DNA of 64,000 nt. Origin: Fimbriimonadaceae bacterium (GTDB lineage Bacteria; Armatimonadota; Fimbriimonadia; Fimbriimonadales; Fimbriimonadaceae). The translations under genes and the position numbers were made by a program. The notes under the pieces are model-generated. The model saw only the letters and a list, made by a program, of their open reading frames with translations. It was not told the DNA's origin and made no database searches. The stretch spans positions 434,001 through 498,000 of the forward strand of contig JAHBTB010000001.1 of the NCBI GenBank assembly GCA_019638795.1. Direction: 5' to 3'. Shown one piece after another: positions 37,248-48,219 of the stretch; position 1 is the first letter of the stretch; each line of letters opens with the position of its first letter.

Positions 37248-37757
37248 TCAACCGTCGATCGATTGGAGCTTCGGCGTCCACTTGGGGTCGGGCTGGTGGG
37301 TCAGCTCGATCATGCGGAGCATGAAGAATCCGAGGGCGTCGCCGAACTCGCGCGCCGTCATCCCTTCTCCAGGCCCGGTCACCAGGGGCCCGACCGTCGC
37401 GACACAGCCCCACCGGACCATCTTGGCGAGGCTCTGCCGCACCTTCGGGTCGGTGTTGTACTTGTCGATCGAATCTTGATAAACCTTGAGCGGTCGCGGC
37501 GTGAACCGGAACTTCGGTTTGCACTCGGCGAAGACCCTCTCCATCTCGGCCAAGACTTGGGCACGGGTGGCCACCTTGTTGCTCAGCCGGGTCGAGGCAG
37601 GTGTGGGGGCGCCGACGATCTTGGCGAGCCCCGTTTCGTACTTGGAGAACGCCGCCCACATGTCTCCCTCACGGAGCGGGGGCGACGGCCTGGGAGTTTG
37701 GGCCAACAAGCCGATGGGCAAGGCCAACGCGACGACTACGGCAAGGTTGCGTCTCAT
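37248..37757 (-). CDS. Secreted hypothetical protein
   Basis: 169 residues with a signal peptide (MRRNLAVVVALALPIGLLAQ). The mature part is mostly helical, with no motif I recognise; two cysteines are present. Its start overlaps the mreB stop by 4 bp, so it is the last gene of a murA-mreB transcript. A link to cell shape is suggested only by position. Confidence 0.75.
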   Translation of the reverse strand: MRRNLAVVVALALPIGLLAQTPRPSPPLREGDMWAAFSKYETGLAKIVGAPTPASTRLSNKVATRAQVLAEMERVFAECKPKFRFTPRPLKVYQDSIDKYNTDPKVRQSLAKMVRWGCVATVGPLVTGPGEGMTAREFGDALGFFMLRMIELTHQPDPKWTPKLQSIDG

Positions 37758-38764
37758 ACGGGGGTCACCGCTCCACTTGCGACAATGGCGTCCATCTCGT
37801 CAAGCGCCCGTCCGGTGCCGATCGCCACCGCATGCATCGCGTTGTCGGCCACTCGTACGGGGATCTCTGTGACGGACGCCAAAAGTTTGTCTAGTCCACG
37901 CAACAACGCGCCACCTCCGGTCAGGGTGATCCCGCGTTCGATGATGTCGCTGGACAATTCGGGCGGAGTCATTTCGAGGGCGGCACAGAGTTTTTCGGCG
38001 ATGGCGCGCACCGGCTCGGTCAACGCCTCGCGGATCTCGTCACTGGAAACCTCGACGGTCCTCGGCAGGCCGGCGATCAGGTCGCGCCCCCGGATCGACA
38101 TCCGGAGCTCCTGGTCCATCGGGTAGGCCGAACCGATCTTGATCTTCACGTCCTCGGCAGTCGGGTCGCCGATGGAAAGGTTGTAGACATGCCGGACGTG
38201 CCGGACGATCGCCTCGTCCATCTTGTCCCCACCCACCCTCAGGCTCTGGGAAAGGACGATGCCTCCCATCGAGATGACGGCGATGTCGGTGGTGCCGCCG
38301 CCGATGTCGACGACCATGTTGCCGCCGGGTTGGCTGATCGGCAGACCCGCCCCGATCGCCGCCGCCATCGGCTCCTCGATGACCTCCGCCCGGCCGAACC
38401 CGGCCTCTTTGGCCGCCTTGATGACTGCCCGGCGCTCCACATTGGTGACCCCGCTGGGGACGCAAATCAACGCGAACGGCTTGACGATCTGATGGCCGAT
38501 CGTCTGCTTGCGGATGAACTCCAGCATCCGTTCGGTGACGGTGTACTCGGCGATGACCCCGTCGCGCATCGGCTTGATCGCGGTGATGTGTCCCGGGGTG
38601 CGCCCCAGCATCTCGCGGGCGGCCCGGCCGACTGCCAACACCTTTTTTGTGTTATTGGCAATGGCCACGACGGTCGGCTCGCTGAGCACGATGCCCTTGC
38701 CGCGCCGGTATACGATGATGTTGGCGGTCCCGAGGTCGATCCCGATGGCGGCGACGAGTTTCAA
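37754..38764 (-). CDS. mreB: Rod-shape determining protein MreB
   Basis: 336 residues, actin fold. Phosphate 1 motif IGIDLGTANIIVY, phosphate 2 motif VVDIGGGTTDIAV, adenosine motif ITLTGGGALLRG. Polymerises along the membrane and guides lateral wall synthesis. Starts with TTG at 38764 with AGGA about 9 nt upstream, 12 bp after murA. mreC and mreD are not adjacent. Confidence 0.95.
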   Translation of the reverse strand: MKLVAAIGIDLGTANIIVYRRGKGIVLSEPTVVAIANNTKKVLAVGRAAREMLGRTPGHITAIKPMRDGVIAEYTVTERMLEFIRKQTIGHQIVKPFALICVPSGVTNVERRAVIKAAKEAGFGRAEVIEEPMAAAIGAGLPISQPGGNMVVDIGGGTTDIAVISMGGIVLSQSLRVGGDKMDEAIVRHVRHVYNLSIGDPTAEDVKIKIGSAYPMDQELRMSIRGRDLIAGLPRTVEVSSDEIREALTEPVRAIAEKLCAALEMTPPELSSDIIERGITLTGGGALLRGLDKLLASVTEIPVRVADNAMHAVAIGTGRALDEMDAIVASGAVTPV

Positions 38765-38776
38765 GTCAAGTTGATC

Positions 38777-40057
38777 CTAGACCAGGGTGGCCTCAAGGCC
38801 GCGGGACTCGCCCACACGCTCGATGTCCCCACCCAACGACACCAAGGTCGCCTCAAGGTCTTCATATCCACGGTCAATGTAGTGGACGTTCTTGACGACC
38901 GTCTCGCCCTCGGCGGCAAGCCCGGCCAAGACCAAGGCCGCCCCGGCGCGCAGGTCGCTGGCCTCCACGGTCGCCCCGCTCAAGCCGTTGACTCCGTTGA
39001 TGACCACCGACTTCCCCTCGATGCGCATCTTCGCCCCCATGCGGTTCAGCTCGTTGACGTGGCCGGTACGGGACTCATAGATGGTCTCCTCGACCACGCT
39101 CGGCCCGTCGGCCATGGTGAGCAACGCCGCCATCGGCTGCTGGATGTCGGTCGGAAACCCAGGGTAAGGCATCGTCTTGACGCGGATTCCGTTCGGTCTG
39201 GCCCGGCCCGACACACGCACCCAATCCGGCCCTTCGTCACCGTCGACCCCCGCTTCGCGCAACTTATGCACAAGGGCGGCCTGACATTCGGGCAACACGC
39301 CACGGACGGTCACGTCGCCCCCGGTGATCGCGCCGGCCAAGAGGTAGGTCGAGGCTTGGACGCGGTCTGACGGCACCAGGAAGTCGGCGTCGCCCAGTTC
39401 CTTCACGCCACGGATCGTGATCGTGGAGGTGCCGGCACCCTCGATTCGGGCCCCCATGCGGACGAGGAAGTCGGCAAGGGAGACCACCTCGGGCTCCATG
39501 GCGGCGTTCTCGATCGTCGTGACGCCTTCGGCCAACGTCGCGGTGGCCATCAAGTGCTGGGTCGCGCCGGCGCTGGGAAAGTCCAGGTAGATCTCCGCGC
39601 CGGTGAGTTTCGGCGCCCGGCCGATGTAGCACCCGTTGCGCAGTTCGACCTCGGCACCCAGGGCGTGGAGCCCCTTGAGGTGAAGGTCGACCGGGCGCGC
39701 ACCGATGCGGCATCCCCCCGGCATGGGCAGGACGGCATGGCCGACCCGGGCCAAGATCGGGCCCAAGAGGTAGAAGGACGTCCGGATCGGACGCACCATT
39801 GCCTCCGACGGCTCGTAGGCCCGGATGTCGGAGCAGTCGAGGAAGATGTCTTTCCCGTCACGCTCGATCCCAGTGCCGTAGCCTGCGATCAAATTGAGCT
39901 TGATATCGACGTCCGAAATCTGCGGTGCGCTCCGCAAAGTGATCTTGCCGCTGCTCAAAAACACTGACGACAACAGTGCCAAGGCGGCATTTTTGCTACC
40001 CGGCACCTGCACGTCGCCCCGCAAGGGGCGCCCTCCAATGATCTTTAAAACGTCCAT
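38777..40057 (-). CDS. murA: UDP-N-acetylglucosamine 1-carboxyvinyltransferase
   Basis: 426 residues, EPSP-synthase-like fold. Catalytic Cys116 in MPGGCRIGARPVDLH; PGSKNAALALL near the N-terminus; a late FPTDIQQPMAAL region contains the conserved Asp. First committed step of peptidoglycan synthesis; the Cys form is the fosfomycin-sensitive type. A -35/-10 pair lies ~46 bp upstream. No Shine-Dalgarno sequence is evident. Confidence 0.95.
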   Translation of the reverse strand: MDVLKIIGGRPLRGDVQVPGSKNAALALLSSVFLSSGKITLRSAPQISDVDIKLNLIAGYGTGIERDGKDIFLDCSDIRAYEPSEAMVRPIRTSFYLLGPILARVGHAVLPMPGGCRIGARPVDLHLKGLHALGAEVELRNGCYIGRAPKLTGAEIYLDFPSAGATQHLMATATLAEGVTTIENAAMEPEVVSLADFLVRMGARIEGAGTSTITIRGVKELGDADFLVPSDRVQASTYLLAGAITGGDVTVRGVLPECQAALVHKLREAGVDGDEGPDWVRVSGRARPNGIRVKTMPYPGFPTDIQQPMAALLTMADGPSVVEETIYESRTGHVNELNRMGAKMRIEGKSVVINGVNGLSGATVEASDLRAGAALVLAGLAAEGETVVKNVHYIDRGYEDLEATLVSLGGDIERVGESRGLEATLV

Positions 40058-40102
40058 TTGGTTGTCCCGTCCGTGGGCCCGGCGGACTCCGCCGATCTGG
40101 CC

Positions 40103-40131
40103 ATTCTACCGGAGATTCAAATCCCTGTCGA
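40103..40131 (-). promoter_or_regulatory. Promoter of murA
   Basis: On the minus strand, TCGACA (-35) and TAGAAT (-10) are separated by 17 bp, about 46 bp before the murA ATG. Confidence 0.5.
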
Positions 40132-40223
40132 TGCCCGGTGTCATAACGGGCATCGACAGTCGAAAGCGACAGTTTTTCGTCTGAGACCAACCAACTGATT
40201 CCTTTTGCCCGGCCCAAGCGTCG

Positions 40224-40229
40224 TATAGT
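40224..40229 (+). promoter_or_regulatory. -10 box (TATAGT) of the HNH leader
   Basis: TATAGT lies 8 nt before an ATG at 40238 that opens a short frame running into the HNH gene. Confidence 0.45.
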
Positions 40230-40237
40230 GCAAGGAG

Positions 40238-40385
40238 ATGGCTCAAAAGGGTCCCCTGACAGAGGCCGCGCGAGTCGTGGTCGAGCAAGGAGACACCCTC
40301 ATATGCGGCGTCAGCAATGAGGGCGGGAAGGGTCTGCGTGCCAAGGCATGCAGGCCTTTTTTTGGCGGTCCAGGGAGGTGTCGAT
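40238..40385 (+). other. Attenuator-like leader with a 48-codon reading frame before the HNH gene
   Basis: From ATG 40238 a frame of 48 sense codons reads MAQKGPLTEAARVVVEQGDT and on, ending in TGA at 40383-40385, which overlaps the HNH ATG (ATGA). An 11-bp hairpin (40331-40356) followed by seven T lies inside the last third of the frame. A second hairpin (CCCTCAT/ATGAGGG arms, 40296-40323) precedes it. Either a leader peptide or structured leader RNA controls read-through into the HNH gene, or this is a short terminated RNA. No known riboswitch class was recognised. The rest of the 326-bp murA-HNH gap holds only the murA promoter. Confidence 0.4.
40331..40363 (+). terminator. Intrinsic terminator in front of the HNH gene
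   Basis: A 12-bp stem with two wobble pairs (left arm 40331-40342, right arm 40345-40356) is followed by TTTTTTT. It lies only 20 bp before the HNH ATG, pointing into the gene. Confidence 0.7.
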
Positions 40386-40920
40386 GACCCCGTATGACGT
40401 CCTCCTCTTGAACGCCAACTACGAGCCCCTCAACGTCTGCAACATCCGGCGGGCCGTCAGTCTGGTGCTCCTCGGCAAAGCCGAAGTGATCGAGGGCTCG
40501 GAGCGGGCCCTGCGCACCAGCGAAGGCGCCCTCAAGGTGCCGTCGGTGGTCAAAATGCGCTACCACGTCCGCCGGCCGATCCCCAAGTTGCGCCTGTCGC
40601 GCCATTCCGTTCTCGCCCGGGACAACTTCACCTGCCAGTACTGCGGGTCGACCCGAGACCTCACGATCGACCACGTCGTCCCCCGATGGATGGGCGGCCC
40701 CTGCACATGGGAAAACCTCGTCGCCTGTTGCCGCCGGTGTAACCTCAAGAAGGGCGACAAGACGGTGCAGGCCGCCAACATGAAGCTGAGGACGACTCCC
40801 AAACGACCGCACTACGTGCCCTACCTGTCCTTGCAAAAGTACATCCGGGCCATGCAACGCGACGATTGGCAGTTCTATCTGCCCGTCTTCGACGAGTTCA
40901 CCAAGACCGTCGTCAACTGA
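40384..40920 (+). CDS. HNH endonuclease family protein
   Basis: 178 residues. The HNH core has CQYC (84-87), the catalytic DH in LTIDHVVPR (96-97), N111, and CRRC (116-119), two zinc-binding pairs. The N-terminal part (LLLNANYEPLNVCNIRRAVSLVLLGKAEVIE) is typical of the common chromosomal HNH family seen in many phyla. ATG 40384 has a strong GGGAGGT ribosome site. An upstream terminator suggests regulated read-through. The biological role of the family is not settled. Confidence 0.92.
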   Translation: MTPYDVLLLNANYEPLNVCNIRRAVSLVLLGKAEVIEGSERALRTSEGALKVPSVVKMRYHVRRPIPKLRLSRHSVLARDNFTCQYCGSTRDLTIDHVVPRWMGGPCTWENLVACCRRCNLKKGDKTVQAANMKLRTTPKRPHYVPYLSLQKYIRAMQRDDWQFYLPVFDEFTKTVVN

Positions 40921-40930
40921 ACGGCCTTCG

Positions 40931-41641
40931 CTACAGGACGCCCTTGGGGGGCGTGATCGTCATCTCGTCCACAACTCGGTCGCGTGGGAGTTTGACAAGG
41001 TCGCGGACCACCTGCCCGACTGACTGCGCCGTCAGCATGTCCTCGCGCGGCGGTGAGCCGGCTTGGGTGTCCCAAAGCGGCGTGTCCGTCGCGCCCGGGA
41101 ACAGCGACGTGACCCGGAGCCCCTGCGAACGATAGCTGGCCGAAAGCGACTTTCCAAACGCGTGGGCCCCTGCCTTGCTGGCCGAATAGGCCTCCGAATG
41201 AGGGAACGTGGTCTGTGCGGCGATGCTGAGGACGTTGATGATCTGCCCGCCCCCCGACTCCAGCATTTGGGGTAGCAGGGCGTGGGTCACCGAAACCAGG
41301 CCGACCAAGTTCACCTCGATTTGCCGCAAGTGTTCGTCAATGGAGAGCTCGTGGAACGGGCCGAACGCGGCGACCCCGGCCACGTTGACCAAGACGATGT
41401 CGCCGGCCCCCAGGGCCTGCACGTGGTCGGCGACGCGTGGCCCGGTCGCCCGGTCGGCCAAGTCGAGGGCGGCGGCGTCCGCCGACCGCGCCCCGGCGCG
41501 CAGGCAGTCCTGGGCCAGCTCGACCAGGCGGTCCAGTCTTCGTGAGACAAGCACCAGGGAGTGGCCGTCTTTGGCCAGGGCCAGAGCCGCTTCGCGACCG
41601 ATCCCGCCGGTCGCCCCGGTGATGACGACACGGCTACTCAC
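40931..41641 (-). CDS. Short-chain dehydrogenase/reductase
   Basis: 236 residues. NADP-binding TGATGGIG, the NVAG structural motif, catalytic Ser in VLSIAAQ region and YSASKAG. GTG 41641 was chosen because it overlaps the TGA of the pterin-synthase-like gene. Co-transcription with a pterin synthase raises the possibility of a sepiapterin-reductase-type role, which is inference only. Generic 3-oxoacyl or alcohol substrates remain possible. Confidence 0.88.
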   Translation of the reverse strand: MSSRVVITGATGGIGREAALALAKDGHSLVLVSRRLDRLVELAQDCLRAGARSADAAALDLADRATGPRVADHVQALGAGDIVLVNVAGVAAFGPFHELSIDEHLRQIEVNLVGLVSVTHALLPQMLESGGGQIINVLSIAAQTTFPHSEAYSASKAGAHAFGKSLSASYRSQGLRVTSLFPGATDTPLWDTQAGSPPREDMLTAQSVGQVVRDLVKLPRDRVVDEMTITPPKGVL

Positions 41642-42461
41642 CTGCTGCCACCTCGAAGGCGTTCCGGGCCGTCTCAAAGAGGGTCACCTTCACCAACTTG
41701 GCCGGCACCTTGCCCACCAGCGCGTCGAATATGGCCGAGGCGACGTTCTCGCTGGTGGACGGCCGTCCCCGGAGCGCCTCGATGTCTACATCCAGGTTTT
41801 TATGGTCATACTTACTGATAACCAATTCTTCTACAACAGCGTCGAGGTCCTCCAATCGGCAGACCATCCCGCTGGACGGGTCGGGCACACCAGCGACACT
41901 GACCTCGAGGACATAGTTGTGCCCATGCCCGGCGGCGTGGTGGCACTTTCCGTACAGACGGACGTTCTCCTCTTCGGACAGGCCGTCGGCGTGAAGCCGG
42001 TGGGCAGCGGCAAACTCATAGGTGCGTGTCAGGGTCAGCATGTCGCTCGGTGCGGTCCACTCGGCCCGCAAGTCTTCGGTTTCGTCCAGCCGGAGCCCCG
42101 TCAGCTCGGCACCTCCCGGTAGGTCGCCCAGGGTACGGCGCAGGTACGCCATCAAGTTCTCCAAGCTGGGTGACACCCCGGCCAATGCCGGGACTTCGTC
42201 GTTCAGGCTCCTTTGGTCGAGTGCACGGACGACCCGCTCCTGGAGCACGTCGTCGATCCACTTGATGTTGACGACCATACCGGTCGTCGGGTCGACGGGC
42301 CCACGGGCCCTCACCCACAAGACGTAGTTGTGCCCGTGGTTATAGGGTGACGCCCAGCGGCCGAAGAGGGCACGGTTTTCGTCTGCCGAAAGGTCGTCTC
42401 GCCAATACCGATGGCCCGCGCTGAAGGTGACGCGGCGCGACATCGTCACCAGGCGGCTCAT
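41634..42461 (-). CDS. Tandem 6-pyruvoyl-tetrahydropterin synthase-like protein
   Basis: 275 residues made of two PTPS/QueD domains. Domain 2 (about 143-275) is complete: zinc ligands H154, H179, H181, catalytic C173 (YGKCHHAAGHGHNY) and D219-H220 in YDHKNLD; it strongly resembles animal-type PTPS. Domain 1 (about 5-135) keeps zinc ligands H17, H42, H44, but the Cys position is W36 and the Asp-His pair reads D82-Q83. One active and one degenerate domain are therefore predicted. Overlaps the SDR gene downstream and the permease gene upstream. Confidence 0.88.
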   Translation of the reverse strand: MSRLVTMSRRVTFSAGHRYWRDDLSADENRALFGRWASPYNHGHNYVLWVRARGPVDPTTGMVVNIKWIDDVLQERVVRALDQRSLNDEVPALAGVSPSLENLMAYLRRTLGDLPGGAELTGLRLDETEDLRAEWTAPSDMLTLTRTYEFAAAHRLHADGLSEEENVRLYGKCHHAAGHGHNYVLEVSVAGVPDPSSGMVCRLEDLDAVVEELVISKYDHKNLDVDIEALRGRPSTSENVASAIFDALVGKVPAKLVKVTLFETARNAFEVAAGE

Positions 42462-43327
42462 GCTTCCTCCCGCATCGGCACACCCAGGCTGGCCGGTGCG
42501 CCGGCGCCACGGCCGGCGACGACCAAGACGACGAAGGCCAAGACATACGGCAGGGCGCGCCACGCCTGGGGAGGCATCGCCGAGCCTTGGGCGAAGGCGC
42601 TGAACTGCGCCCAGTCCGCCGCGCCGACGAAGACCGTCGCCGCCGCGACCCAGAGGGGCTTCCACCGACCGAACGTGACCATGGCCAAAGCGATGAACCC
42701 CCGGCCCGAAGTCATGTTCTCGGCGAACGAACCGGCGATCCCCAAGCTCAGATACGCCCCCGCGACGCCTGCCGTCACGGCTCCCATGACCAATGCGGCA
42801 AGCCTCAGCCGCATCACGGAGAACCCTGCCGCCGTCACGGCTTGGGGAAACTCGCCGCACGCCCGCAAAGCCAGGCCAATCCGGGTGCGCGTCAAGACGA
42901 CTCCCGCGACCGCCGCCGCGACCAAGCCGAGGACGAGCACGATGTCGAGCCCGCCGGGCAGTTTTGGGAAGGTCGGCACGCTCAGGAGCTTGCCCGACGT
43001 CCCGAACTGGAGCCGGAACAAGGCACTGGTCACGCCCATGGCGAGCAGGTTCACCACCGTCCCGACCACCACTTGGTCCGCGGCGAGCTTCAGGGTGAAG
43101 TAGGCCTGGGCCAGGCCGAGGACCACCGATGCCGCCACTCCTGCGGCGAGGCCCAGCCACGGGTTCCCGGAGGCCCCGCTGGCGACGACGGCGGCATAGG
43201 TGCCCGCCAGCATCATCCCCTCCAAGCCGACGTTGATGACCCCTGCCTTCTGCCCGACCGTCTCGCCAGTCGCGGCCAGGCCGATCGGCGTCGCAAACCG
43301 GAGCACGTCGACCAAGGTGCCGATCAT
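42458..43327 (-). CDS. BMP-type ABC transporter permease 2
   Basis: 289 residues, about eight hydrophobic segments. The conserved loop INVGLEGMMLAG is typical of the nucleoside/BMP importer permeases (NupQ/YufQ type). Overlaps the neighbouring genes on both sides by 4 bp, so it is translated as part of the same unit. Confidence 0.9.
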   Translation of the reverse strand: MIGTLVDVLRFATPIGLAATGETVGQKAGVINVGLEGMMLAGTYAAVVASGASGNPWLGLAAGVAASVVLGLAQAYFTLKLAADQVVVGTVVNLLAMGVTSALFRLQFGTSGKLLSVPTFPKLPGGLDIVLVLGLVAAAVAGVVLTRTRIGLALRACGEFPQAVTAAGFSVMRLRLAALVMGAVTAGVAGAYLSLGIAGSFAENMTSGRGFIALAMVTFGRWKPLWVAAATVFVGAADWAQFSAFAQGSAMPPQAWRALPYVLAFVVLVVAGRGAGAPASLGVPMREEA

Positions 43328-44337
43328 GCCGTCTCCTCCACCCGCCTTGGACGCCGGGCCATCAACTGCCCAAGGGCCAGGAAGGCGAGCACGGCGGTCG
43401 CCTGGACCACCACGACGACGGTGTTACCGATCGGCGTGTAGCGGGTCAGGTTTTCCGTGCCGGCGAACAGCACCCCGAAATACAAGGCCGAAACCGCGAC
43501 CCACAACGGCTCAAGGCCACCGAGGAGGGCGACCGGGATGGCGAGGAAACCCCAGTTCTGCGAGAAACCGTCGCCGAGCCGCCCGGTGACTCCGGCAAAG
43601 TCGACCGCCCCGGCCAGGCCGCACAGTCCGCCGGAGACGGCCATGGCCACCGCATGGGTCCGGTCCACGGGCAGGCGCTCGGTACGCGCCAGCCGTGGGT
43701 TGGCCCCGACCACCCGCAGGACGAGCCCCTGCTTCGTGAAGGACATGTAGACCCAGACCCCCACGACGGCCAAGGCGGCGACGAAGACGCCGCTGTGCAG
43801 GCTTGTCCCCCTCACAAGTTGGAGCAGCATCGCGTCGTTCGGGACGGCCGCCGTCATCGGCCGTTGGTGGCTGGGCTCCTGGAGCGGCCCCCGGACGGCC
43901 CACGCCACGGCCTCCACGGCGACAAAGTTGAGCAAGATTGTCGAGACGACCAACTGGACTCCGCGCTTAAGCCACGCCCAGGTCGCCAGTGACGCCCACC
44001 CCGCGCCGCCCACGACGCCGCTGCACAGCATCACCGGCGCCCAGACCGGCGCCGCCACGGGGGCAAGCAGGACGGCCGCCCCGGCCGCCGCCAAGGCCCC
44101 GACCAGATACTGTCCTTCCCCTCCGATGTTGTACATGCCCGCCCGCCACGCCACCGCCATGCCGAGGGCGGTCAGGCAGAGCGGCGTCGCCCGGGTCAGG
44201 GTCGTCGGCCACCCGTAGTTCGGGTTGAAGGCGCCCTCGGCGATGAGCCCCAGAGAGCGAGGGACGTCGAGGCCGAAAGCGGCCAAGGTCAGGGCAAGGA
44301 TGGCGACCATGCCGACCGCGGAGACCAGGAACTTCAC
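43324..44337 (-). CDS. BMP-type ABC transporter permease 1
   Basis: 337 residues with eight or more membrane segments. MYNIGGEGQYLVGALAAA is the family loop that contacts the ATPase (NupP/YufP type). Forms the membrane channel with the following permease. 4-bp overlaps with both neighbours. Confidence 0.9.
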   Translation of the reverse strand: MKFLVSAVGMVAILALTLAAFGLDVPRSLGLIAEGAFNPNYGWPTTLTRATPLCLTALGMAVAWRAGMYNIGGEGQYLVGALAAAGAAVLLAPVAAPVWAPVMLCSGVVGGAGWASLATWAWLKRGVQLVVSTILLNFVAVEAVAWAVRGPLQEPSHQRPMTAAVPNDAMLLQLVRGTSLHSGVFVAALAVVGVWVYMSFTKQGLVLRVVGANPRLARTERLPVDRTHAVAMAVSGGLCGLAGAVDFAGVTGRLGDGFSQNWGFLAIPVALLGGLEPLWVAVSALYFGVLFAGTENLTRYTPIGNTVVVVVQATAVLAFLALGQLMARRPRRVEETA

Positions 44338-45764
44338 GCCCCGCCTCCGACCGACGCCGAGAACCGCCCCGCCGACATGTAGACCTTGCGGTCGGCGAGC
44401 AGGTCCAACTCGTCAAGGTCGGTGGTGAAGAGGACGACCGCCGCCCCGTCCGCGGCAGCCTGTCGAATAACCGTGTGGACGAAGTCTGTCGCCCGCACAT
44501 CGAGGCCCCTGGTGGGGTTCATCACAACGAGAAGGTCGGGCCGTTGGCTCAGCACCCTGCTGACCACGACCTTCTGCTGGTTCCCCCCGCTCAAGCTCCC
44601 CGCCGGGTCGCGGGGTGATGCGACCTTGACGGCAAACTTTTCGACCAGACCCTTGGCCGTCGCCCGCGCCTGTCGCCGGTCCAAGAACGGGCCGCGGGTC
44701 AGCCGAGGGTCGGCGAGCATGCCCACCACGAGGTTGTCTTCGACCGAGAGATCGAGGGCCAAGCCGTCATGCCGCCGGTCTTGGGGGACGAAGCCGGTCC
44801 GGTCGGGCCGGTCCAAGTGGCCACCGGCAAGGTCACGCACCCCGGCCAAAGCCTCGGCCAACTCTAACTGGCCGTTGCCGTCGACACCTCCGATCCCGAG
44901 CACCTCGCCGGCGCGGCACGTCAGGTCGACACCGTCGACCGCCCGATTGCCCCGGTCGCCGGTGACGACCAGACCCTGGCCGGACAGGACGGTCATTCCC
45001 GGTCCCGAACCCGCCACGAGGGTCGCCGGCGGCCGCTCGCCGACCATCCACCGCTCCAGCTGGGCCGCGTCGACGTCCTTGGCGTCCGCCTCCGCCACCT
45101 TGCGGCCCGACCTCAACACGGCCACGCGGTCTGCCACCGAGAGCACCTCGGCGAGCTTGTGGGCGATCAGAACCACCGCCCTGCCCTCTGCCGCCAACTG
45201 CCGCAAGACCCGGAAGAGGTCGGCGACTTCGTCAGGGGAGAGCACGGCAGTGGGCTCGTCCAACACGAGCACGCGGGAGTCTTGGGCCAAGGCTTTGAGA
45301 ATCTCGATCCGTTGCTGCACGCCGACGGCGGTCTGCGACGCCTTGTCGTCCAGGGGTAGTTCCCAACCCAGGCGGCCGGCCCACGCGACGGCACCCTCGA
45401 CCAAGGCGTCGGTGTCGAGGCGTCCGTTCAAACTGCCCATTGTCGCCAGAGCGATGTTCTCGCGGGCGGTGAACTCGGGCACCAGCATGAAGTGCTGGTG
45501 GACCAGGTGGATCCCCGACTGCCGTGCGGCGACGGGGTCACCGCCTGGCAGGGCCCGGTCACCATAAAAGACGGCCCCATGGTCGAGCTTCACAAACCCG
45601 GCCAAGACCCCCATCAGAGTGGACTTGCCCGCGCCGTTCTCACCCAAGACCGCATGGACCTGACCAGGCTCGAAGGCTAAATCGACATCGACCAAGGCGC
45701 GGACGGAGCCGAACGCCTTGCTGACGCCCCGTGCCTCCAGCCGTTCGGCCTGGCCCCCCACCAC
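44334..45764 (-). CDS. BMP-type ABC transporter ATP-binding protein
   Basis: 476 residues, two ABC domains in one chain as in NupO/RbsA types. Domain 1: Walker A GENGAGKSTLMG, Walker B VLVLDEPTAVLSP. Domain 2: diverged Walker A GIGGVDGNGQLEL, signature SLSGGNQQKVVVSR, and Walker B-like VVMNPTRGLD. Domain 2 lacks the usual Walker A Lys, as is common in this family. Drives import with the two permeases. Confidence 0.93.
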   Translation of the reverse strand: MVGGQAERLEARGVSKAFGSVRALVDVDLAFEPGQVHAVLGENGAGKSTLMGVLAGFVKLDHGAVFYGDRALPGGDPVAARQSGIHLVHQHFMLVPEFTARENIALATMGSLNGRLDTDALVEGAVAWAGRLGWELPLDDKASQTAVGVQQRIEILKALAQDSRVLVLDEPTAVLSPDEVADLFRVLRQLAAEGRAVVLIAHKLAEVLSVADRVAVLRSGRKVAEADAKDVDAAQLERWMVGERPPATLVAGSGPGMTVLSGQGLVVTGDRGNRAVDGVDLTCRAGEVLGIGGVDGNGQLELAEALAGVRDLAGGHLDRPDRTGFVPQDRRHDGLALDLSVEDNLVVGMLADPRLTRGPFLDRRQARATAKGLVEKFAVKVASPRDPAGSLSGGNQQKVVVSRVLSQRPDLLVVMNPTRGLDVRATDFVHTVIRQAAADGAAVVLFTTDLDELDLLADRKVYMSAGRFSASVGGGA

Positions 45765-45765
45765 G

Positions 45766-46785
45766 TCAGAACTGGTCCATCGGGACTTTGACCGACCCTT
45801 GGATGATGCCGATCGTCAAGGAGTCGATCTGGCTCCGGACCTCGGGCGGCACCTTGTCGGCCAGCTTGGGGTTGAACGTGAACCGGACGGCTCCCTTCGA
45901 CATCCCCACCGTGGTCACTTCGCCTTGATAGGTGCCCGCCTGGACCCGCTTGGCGAGTTCTTCGAAGGCAGGCTTCGCGACGATCTCGGCCGAGGCAAGG
46001 ACGATCCCGCTCGGGTTGTCGTTTTGGTCCAGGTTGGACCCGAAGGCGTAGACCCCTTTCTCCTTGCAGGCGTCGAAGACACCCTGGGCCGCCGCGTTGG
46101 CCTGGTGGATCACAAAGTCAGCGCCTTGCCCGATCGCCGCAAGAGTCGCCTGCTTTGCCTTGGCGACGTCCTGCCCGTCGTTGGTGAACGTCTCGATCAC
46201 TTGGACGCTGGGATCGGTCGCCTTGGCCCCGGCCTCAAACGCCTTGAACGTGGACCGGATCGACGGCACGTCGGGGCCACCGATCATCGCGAGCTTTTTG
46301 GTCTTGCTCATCTTCGCCGCCGTCACCCCGGCGAGGTAGAAGCCCTCTTCTAGGGCGAACCGGAACGCCCCGACGTTGGCGGCCGTCTTGCCGCCTGAAC
46401 TGCTGATGAAAACCGTGTTGGGAAACTCCTTGGCCACTTCGATGGCAGGGTCGTTGTACTCGTACCCGTGCCCGAAGACGAGGTTGTAGCCCTTTTGAGC
46501 GTACGAACGCATCGCGTCCTTGATCTGGGCGTCCTTGGCCTCCTGGTTGTGCACTTCGGCGTGGAGGTCGGTCTTGATCGCCTGGAGGCCGTCGTAGGCC
46601 AGGGCGCTCCATCCCGAGTCGCTGACCGGGCCCGGCGTCAGCAACGCGACCTTGAGCGTCCCTTGGACTGCCGCGACTTTCTTGGTTTCTGGCGACGGCA
46701 AGGCCGCGTCCGGTTTCTGCGTCCCGCCGGAACATCCGGCCAAGAACAGCGCCACCGTGGCGAACGACAACAACGTTCGAGTCAT
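45766..46785 (-). CDS. BMP-family substrate-binding lipoprotein
   Basis: 339 residues. Lipobox LFLAGC at residues ~14-18, then the BMP (PnrA-like) fold: GPVSDSGWSALAYDGLQ, the FGHGYEYNDPAIEVA segment and IHQANAAAQGVFDAC. PnrA-type proteins bind purine nucleosides, so this is the probable substrate; the aromatic ligand contacts were not verified. First gene of the unit with TAGAAT 9 nt upstream. Confidence 0.93.
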   Translation of the reverse strand: MTRTLLSFATVALFLAGCSGGTQKPDAALPSPETKKVAAVQGTLKVALLTPGPVSDSGWSALAYDGLQAIKTDLHAEVHNQEAKDAQIKDAMRSYAQKGYNLVFGHGYEYNDPAIEVAKEFPNTVFISSSGGKTAANVGAFRFALEEGFYLAGVTAAKMSKTKKLAMIGGPDVPSIRSTFKAFEAGAKATDPSVQVIETFTNDGQDVAKAKQATLAAIGQGADFVIHQANAAAQGVFDACKEKGVYAFGSNLDQNDNPSGIVLASAEIVAKPAFEELAKRVQAGTYQGEVTTVGMSKGAVRFTFNPKLADKVPPEVRSQIDSLTIGIIQGSVKVPMDQF

Positions 46786-46794
46786 CTCAACCGC

Positions 46795-46800
46795 ATTCTA
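46795..46800 (-). promoter_or_regulatory. -10 box (TAGAAT) of the importer unit
   Basis: TAGAAT on the minus strand, 9 nt before the binding-protein ATG; the likely promoter for the downstream six-gene unit. Confidence 0.5.
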
Positions 46801-46872
46801 CGTCGGAGACTACGCCTTTCTGCCAGTGGATACCCATGGACGACGGCAAGCCAGAGGTAAAAGTCTGTCCAC

Positions 46873-48219
46873 GTGAACGACACGGTTCCTGCGCCACGGA
46901 CCGTCACGGCGCGCCAAGCCTGGGCGATCTACTTCCCCCTTGCCGCGTCGTGGCTGTTCATGGCGGTCGAGGCGCCCGTCTCCAACTTCATCCTCTCGCG
47001 CCATCCTGACCCCACCCTCACGACGGCGTCGTACATGCCGCTGATGGCGATGTGCATGCTGATCGAGAGCCCGGTCATCGACCTCCTCACCACGTCGACG
47101 ACCCTCGGGGCCAAGAAGTCGGCCTTTCCAGTCCTCAAGCAGTACGCCGGGCTCCTGTGCTTGCTCGTGACCCTGGTCCACGCTTTGGTGGTCTTCACCC
47201 CGCTGTACGACATCCTGACGCTCGGCGCTCTGAAGCTGGAGCCGGAGATCGCGCGGACCGCCCACGTCCCTATGATGATCATGACGCCGTGGGCCGGCTT
47301 CGTCGGCCAGCGTCGCTACCTGCAGGGGCTCATGATCCGCAACGGAGAGACCAAGCGGATCGGCTTCGGCACGTTCCTCCGCATGGCGACCGTCGTGGTC
47401 TGCGGCGCGGGGCTGACCCTCCTCACCAAGTTGCCCGGTCTCGTCGTGGTCGCCTGGGGTCTGGTCGCCAGCGTCGCCGTCGAGGCAGGCTACATCCGCT
47501 GGGCGAGCCGACGCGTGGTCGCGACCTACACCGATGCGCCCGACGACGGCGTGGACGCCCCGACACTGTCGTCGGTGTTGCACTTCCACCTCCCCCTCTT
47601 TGGCACGATGCTCATCATCATGAGCATGTCGTTGGTCGTGACGGCGGCACTCAGCCGTGGCATGGACGCGGTGGTCTCGCTGGCCGCCTGGCAATTGGCC
47701 GCCTCGACGGTCTGGCTCTTCCGCACCGTCCTCTTTGCCCTGCCGGAGATGATCATCAGCCAGTTCGAAGGCGGCCACAACGCGGCGATGCTGTTCAAGT
47801 TCAGCACGACAGTCGGCCTGGTCTGCTCCGGCGTCATGCTCATCGCTGTCGTCACGGGGCTCGACCGGTTCATTTTCCGCGTCGGCTTCGACGCTGAGGC
47901 CACCGTCGCCGCCTCAGCGTCGTTGGCCTTCGCCCTTTGTGTCGCCCTCCCCATTGTCAGCGCGTGGATCTCGTACGTCCGGGCCGCCCTCACGGCCAAG
48001 CACGACACGGCCAGCCGCTTCTGGGCGATCATTGTCGATGTCGCCGTCCTCTTTGCCATGCTTGAAGTCGGAGTCAGGCTCCGATGGCCCGGCGTGGTCA
48101 ACGCGTCCGTCGCCCTGACCTTGGCTCTCGCCGTCGAGACGGCCTTCTTGGCCTCGCGCTGGCAACGGCTCAAAGCACGAGAGGCGATGAACGCCGCATT
48201 GGCGGCGGCGGACGTCTAG
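46873..48219 (+). CDS. Multi-pass membrane transporter, MOP/MATE-like
   Basis: 448 residues with about twelve hydrophobic helices and a repeated two-half layout. RRYLQGLMIRNGETKRIGFGTFLR at mid-protein recalls the cytosolic loop of MATE/flippase-type and ANKH-like transporters. Substrate unknown. GTG start at 46873 with a weak TAAAAG box 9 nt before it and no ribosome site. Divergent from the importer unit. Confidence 0.7.
   Translation: MNDTVPAPRTVTARQAWAIYFPLAASWLFMAVEAPVSNFILSRHPDPTLTTASYMPLMAMCMLIESPVIDLLTTSTTLGAKKSAFPVLKQYAGLLCLLVTLVHALVVFTPLYDILTLGALKLEPEIARTAHVPMMIMTPWAGFVGQRRYLQGLMIRNGETKRIGFGTFLRMATVVVCGAGLTLLTKLPGLVVVAWGLVASVAVEAGYIRWASRRVVATYTDAPDDGVDAPTLSSVLHFHLPLFGTMLIIMSMSLVVTAALSRGMDAVVSLAAWQLAASTVWLFRTVLFALPEMIISQFEGGHNAAMLFKFSTTVGLVCSGVMLIAVVTGLDRFIFRVGFDAEATVAASASLAFALCVALPIVSAWISYVRAALTAKHDTASRFWAIIVDVAVLFAMLEVGVRLRWPGVVNASVALTLALAVETAFLASRWQRLKAREAMNAALAAADV

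Follow-up and report, generated by a model that had tools for sequence, protein, structure and literature searches.

Tetrahydrobiopterin is a cofactor best known from animals. Its pathway, described in animals, Synechococcus and Chlorobium, proceeds in three catalytic steps, which are carried out by a GTP cyclohydrolase, a PTPS enzyme and a sepiapterin reductase of the SDR family. PTPS enzymes are distinguished by the spacing of their motif, being C-x5-HGH in PTPS-II (biopterin), C-x3-HGH in PTPS-I (queuosine) and ExxHGH in PTPS-III (folate) (PMC5041015, PMC5445326). Only about 50 bacterial COG0720 proteins are counted as biopterin enzymes, and the best match of a PTPS may be the wrong paralogue (PMC5041015). 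In the sepiapterin reductase of C. tepidum, Phe-99 and Trp-196 stack the pterin and are indispensable for its binding (PMC7520308). In the literature searched, pterin transporters are described for Leishmania-type parasites and mammals, and none was found for bacteria; nothing was found there on bacterial pterin ABC importers or on biopterin in Armatimonadetes.

The window, which is the whole stretch of 64,000 nucleotides analysed, belongs to a Fimbriimonadaceae bacterium (Armatimonadota) and carries an operon whose likely functions are tetrahydrobiopterin synthesis and the uptake of a pterin-like substance. The biopterin half of this interpretation is strongly supported. The enzymes are of known kinds; the novelty lies in the half-decayed tandem PTPS and, even more, in the coupling of importer and biopterin genes across the phylum. 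No earlier description of either was found in the literature searched, with most subscription journals outside the search.

The six-gene operon and its surroundings

The host genome has 2.7 Mb and is 99% complete. The operon is formed by six genes, all on the minus strand, running from 46785 to 40931. The first encodes a BMP/PnrA-type substrate-binding lipoprotein (45766..46785, 339 aa) with lipobox Cys18, which matches Pfam PF02608 (E 9e-52) and has an AlphaFold model with pLDDT 89. It is followed by an ABC ATPase (44334..45764, 476 aa) with two nucleotide-binding halves, which matches PF00005 in two stretches, and by ABC permease 1 (43324..44337, 337 aa) and ABC permease 2 (42458..43327, 289 aa), which both match PF02653. 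The last two genes encode a tandem PTPS of 275 aa (41634..42461), which has two PF01242 matches, and an SDR (40931..41641, 236 aa from the GTG at 41641), which matches PF00106.

The BMP and ATPase genes are separated by 1 nt, the ATPase/permease 1, permease 1/permease 2 and permease 2/PTPS junctions overlap by 4 nt each, and the PTPS and SDR genes overlap by 8 nt, provided that GTG 41641 is the SDR start. The coordinates and the strand thus confirm the overlapped six-gene unit of the original prediction. The single promoter of that prediction did not find the same confirmation, as a promoter and terminator scan of 40700-47200 gave no sigma-70-like consensus site and nothing above chance. The sole candidate promoter region is the gap of 87 nt on the minus strand (46786..46872) before the divergent gene at 46873, and transcription of the six genes from one promoter may be presumed from the gene overlaps. 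No riboswitch was found by Rfam, whose only match within the window is one tRNA. Gene order and content are kept in distant relatives, far beyond chance. The operon adjoins genes for an HNH endonuclease, murA and mreB (37754-40920), whose synteny is conserved in several genomes of the same family.

The importer and its predicted ligand

The transporter genes encode a lipoprotein of BMP fold, a double ATPase and two permeases, which is the composition of a BMP/PnrA importer. The nearest folds of the binding protein are AtzT, which binds guanine, BmpD, Lbp, PnrA, and RfuA, which binds riboflavin. The best NCBIfam model of the ATPase is a putative B6 ABC ATPase, matched far below its cut-off. Guanine and pterin have a 2-amino-4-oxo-pyrimidine ring in common, and the ring of riboflavin is pteridine-like, so a pterin ligand is plausible. 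In the pocket, Trp59 aligns with the stacking Tyr45 of AtzT, while Glu165, which contacts guanine, and Asn169 are not conserved. Since the key glutamate of AtzT is not kept, the ligand has to be predicted from gene context, from which a pterin (or guanine-type compound) is the best inference, and it is the least certain part of the interpretation.

The context was surveyed in 151 genomes of the phylum, 54 of which have the tandem PTPS. The ATPase and both permeases lie directly before the PTPS in all 20 genomes of the host's family, with the BMP gene in front in 18, and the arrangement of transporter and PTPS recurs in several other families. In two Planctomycetota, too, a tandem PTPS is preceded by the ATPase and both permeases; no BMP gene was found immediately ahead of this ABC set. 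Four genomes of another Armatimonadota family (L200, L201, L202, L203-L204) have the same transporter genes with no tandem PTPS; the set lies on one contig directly before FolE in three of them and is split between two contig ends in the fourth. One of the four (G007) retains an aromatic hydroxylase. BMP proteins that score above 380 bits against the profile of the linked proteins occur in 32 genomes, which are 28 with the tandem PTPS and the four importer genomes that lack it. The enzyme cassette is found without the transporter in many phyla, which counts against the coupling. The recurrence of the gene set across the phylum suggests pterins as the substrate of the importer. Tentatively, the BMP-ABC system could even be a bacterial importer reserved for biopterin-type pterins, one that co-evolved with biopterin synthesis across Armatimonadota and forms a branch specific to pterins within the family of nucleoside importers.

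A second BMP paralogue is encoded outside the operon (G000:C15:27676-28644, L205); it scores about 213 bits against the linked profile and is probably of the ordinary nucleoside type.

Alternatively, biopterin would be synthesized as proposed and the imported compounds would be guanine or purine nucleosides, replenishing the GTP from which pterins are made, in line with the nearest solved relatives, which bind guanine (AtzT), guanosine (Lbp) and other nucleosides. This is rather unlikely, because GTP serves many pathways, which makes an operon with two late pterin enzymes odd, because the second BMP paralogue exists outside the operon, and because the Glu165 contact of AtzT is lost.

The predicted biopterin enzymes and the probable users of pterin

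Tandem PTPS—The AlphaFold model of the protein has two PTPS folds (pLDDT 94), and its nearest structures are human, rat and nematode PTPS. Animal PTPS enzymes are the closest solved structures to domain 2; this similarity by itself is not taken as proof, because a best match can mislead (PMC5041015). Domain 2 (41634..42047) has the PTPS-II motif CxxxxxHGH as C173-HHAAG-HGH, and its catalytic set is complete: Cys173, three histidines as zinc ligands (His154, His179, His181), Asp219 paired with His220, and Glu263, which anchors the pterin. Among 89 tandem homologues, C173, H154, H179, H181 and E263 are invariant, Asp219 is kept in 85 and His220 in 75. Domain 1 (42048..42461) retains the zinc histidines and the anchoring glutamate, with W36 in place of the catalytic cysteine and Q83 in place of the histidine. 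It is 37% identical to domain 2 and is therefore a duplicate, decayed as judged from its residues. The cysteine of domain 1 is retained in 15 of the 89 homologues, and only four, which belong to Chloroflexota and Candidatus Binatia, retain the full catalytic set in this domain; in some Armatimonadota even its zinc ligands are gone.

SDR—The window SDR carries the Ser-Tyr-Lys triad, and the equivalents of Phe-99 and Trp-196 are both kept. A profile built from 15 PTPS-linked SDRs places the C. tepidum sepiapterin reductase 2bd0 in the top three of all SDRs in the PDB (E 3.7e-55), on a par with the second-best match. Among PTPS-linked SDRs, the tryptophan is present in 48 of 52 and the phenylalanine in 36 of 52; the 13 other SDRs of the host genome have the tryptophan in two cases, the phenylalanine in none, and both residues in none. 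In the SDR tree the linked SDRs of the same family form a supported clade, and, within a backbone that is not resolved, 2bd0 is found among the linked SDRs and most of the other SDRs of the host in a separate supported clade. The SDR is probably a sepiapterin reductase of Chlorobium type and appears to lie on the sepiapterin-reductase side; clustering with fatty-acid or polyol reductases was the outcome that the original prediction had named as speaking against it. Of the 19 other loci from the same family, 12 have the SDR gene 3' of the PTPS and 7 lack it in the operon.

GTP cyclohydrolase—The enzyme is absent locally, as the original prediction had noted, and the genome nevertheless has a FolE2 on contig C2 (C2:156890-157636), whose family assignment was confirmed. 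FolE or FolE2 is present in all 54 genomes with the tandem PTPS, and the 20 genomes of the host's family all have FolE2 and lack FolE. Outside this family, the gene directly 3' of the tandem PTPS is FolE in 19 loci and FolE2 in 7, sometimes with an SDR next. The PTPS, FolE and SDR cassette is also found in Herpetosiphon and Chloroflexus (Chloroflexota), Poribacteria, Paenibacillus and Anoxybacillus (Bacillota) and Acidobacteriota. These neighbourhoods are evidence for a complete biopterin pathway that is independent of the motif. The FolE2 of the host completes the de novo route to tetrahydrobiopterin, which makes salvage alone, the purpose first suggested for these enzymes, unlikely.

Other arrangements were observed as well. 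In Paenibacillus and other Bacillota (L118, L121, L124, L128, L138) the SDR precedes the tandem PTPS, FolE is absent from the locus, and the recurrent neighbours include large membrane proteins that resemble sensors. In Acidobacteriota, two consecutive PTPS-like ORFs precede FolE (L140-L142, L145-L147, L149, L162, L166-L167, L180-L181), and these loci may encode three PTPS domains.

Pterin users—The biopterin-dependent aromatic amino acid hydroxylase (PF00351) is found in 28 of the 151 genomes, 27 of which have the tandem PTPS. Outside the host's family this holds for seven of eight hydroxylase genomes (hypergeometric p 3e-4, uncorrected for kinship). In the host, the hydroxylase gene (L197 5957-6880) lies some 4 kb to the left of the window, and its product matches NCBIfam phenylalanine 4-monooxygenase above cut-off. 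Pterin-carbinolamine dehydratase (PF01329), which acts in recycling, is present in all 28 hydroxylase genomes, the host among them. NO synthase was rejected as a pterin user, its gene being absent from all 151 genomes. The hydroxylase is absent from 27 of the 54 tandem-PTPS genomes; with only half of them having it and none having NO synthase, another use of pterin must exist there. The motif, the stacking residues of the SDR, the FolE and FolE2 neighbours and the co-occurrence with the hydroxylase together uphold the assignment of PTPS and SDR to the latter half of the tetrahydrobiopterin pathway.

The same half of PTPS genomes without hydroxylase, and the PTPS-less genomes that keep importer and FolE, one of them (G007) with the hydroxylase, would fit a product that is a related but different reduced pterin, such as tetrahydromonapterin or a glycosylated or otherwise modified pterin. 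Such a product is improbable, as PTPS and a sepiapterin-reductase-like SDR are the defining pair of biopterin synthesis. Very improbable is a folate bypass, in which the PTPS replaces dihydroneopterin aldolase in the PTPS-III role with FolE alongside: FolB is undetected in 6 of the 20 same-family genomes and FolE neighbours are common to both pathways, but the host has FolB (C4:27713-28039), the ExxHGH signature is absent and the cysteine invariant, and no part in folate synthesis is known for the SDR. The tandem PTPS can hardly be the queuosine enzyme QueD, although it passes the NCBIfam QueD cut-off of 89.25 bits with 92.1, for it has the x5 spacing of PTPS-II, no Que gene is recognised among its recurrent neighbours, and a separate PTPS with C-x3-HGH (L034:8684-9154) has QueC and QueE within 3 kb in the same genome.

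With this separate PTPS and FolB in the genome, neither queuosine nor folate synthesis needs the tandem protein. QueC, QueE or QueF partners had been named in the original prediction as the sign of queuosine use, and the queuosine genes sit with the other PTPS. This QueC/QueE-linked PTPS fails the QueD cut-off with 71.1 bits, which the tandem PTPS passes, so the database names of the two types have probably been swapped by automatic annotation.

Proposed pathway and comparison with known systems

In the proposed biopterin route, FolE2, encoded elsewhere in the genome, would convert GTP to dihydroneopterin triphosphate, from which domain 2 of the PTPS is predicted to form 6-pyruvoyl-tetrahydropterin. 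The SDR would then reduce the side chain, and the tetrahydrobiopterin formed may be the L-threo isomer, as it is in Chlorobium. Phenylalanine hydroxylase is the probable user, and pterin-carbinolamine dehydratase would recycle the cofactor. The most likely task of the BMP-type importer is to retrieve pterins (biopterin, dihydrobiopterin, sepiapterin) that are lost to the medium or found in it, which would spare GTP.

The biopterin cassette recurs across one phylum and several others, and its PTPS would be called QueD by automatic models. The decayed domain 1 represents a homo-oligomeric enzyme becoming a tandem with a single working half. As the binding protein shares an operon with biopterin enzymes, it lends itself to a direct ligand test.

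The pathway of animals, Synechococcus and Chlorobium has the same three enzyme families, the same PTPS-II motif and the same three catalytic steps as those encoded here. It differs in that the PTPS here is a tandem with a decayed first domain, the first step goes via FolE2 in the host's family, and the late enzymes share one operon with an ABC importer. The window SDR and 2bd0 share the Ser-Tyr-Lys triad, the Phe-99/Trp-196 stacking residues and a C-terminal P-x-G, but they are deeply diverged, and the tree leaves their exact branching among SDRs unresolved. The AtzT, PnrA, Lbp, BmpD and RfuA importers have the same fold and gene set as the window importer, with a binding protein, a double ATPase and two PF02653 permeases, whereas the latter is linked to pterin genes and has a different set of conserved residues around the ligand site (W59, H106-G107, E109, N251, Q254 and N255).
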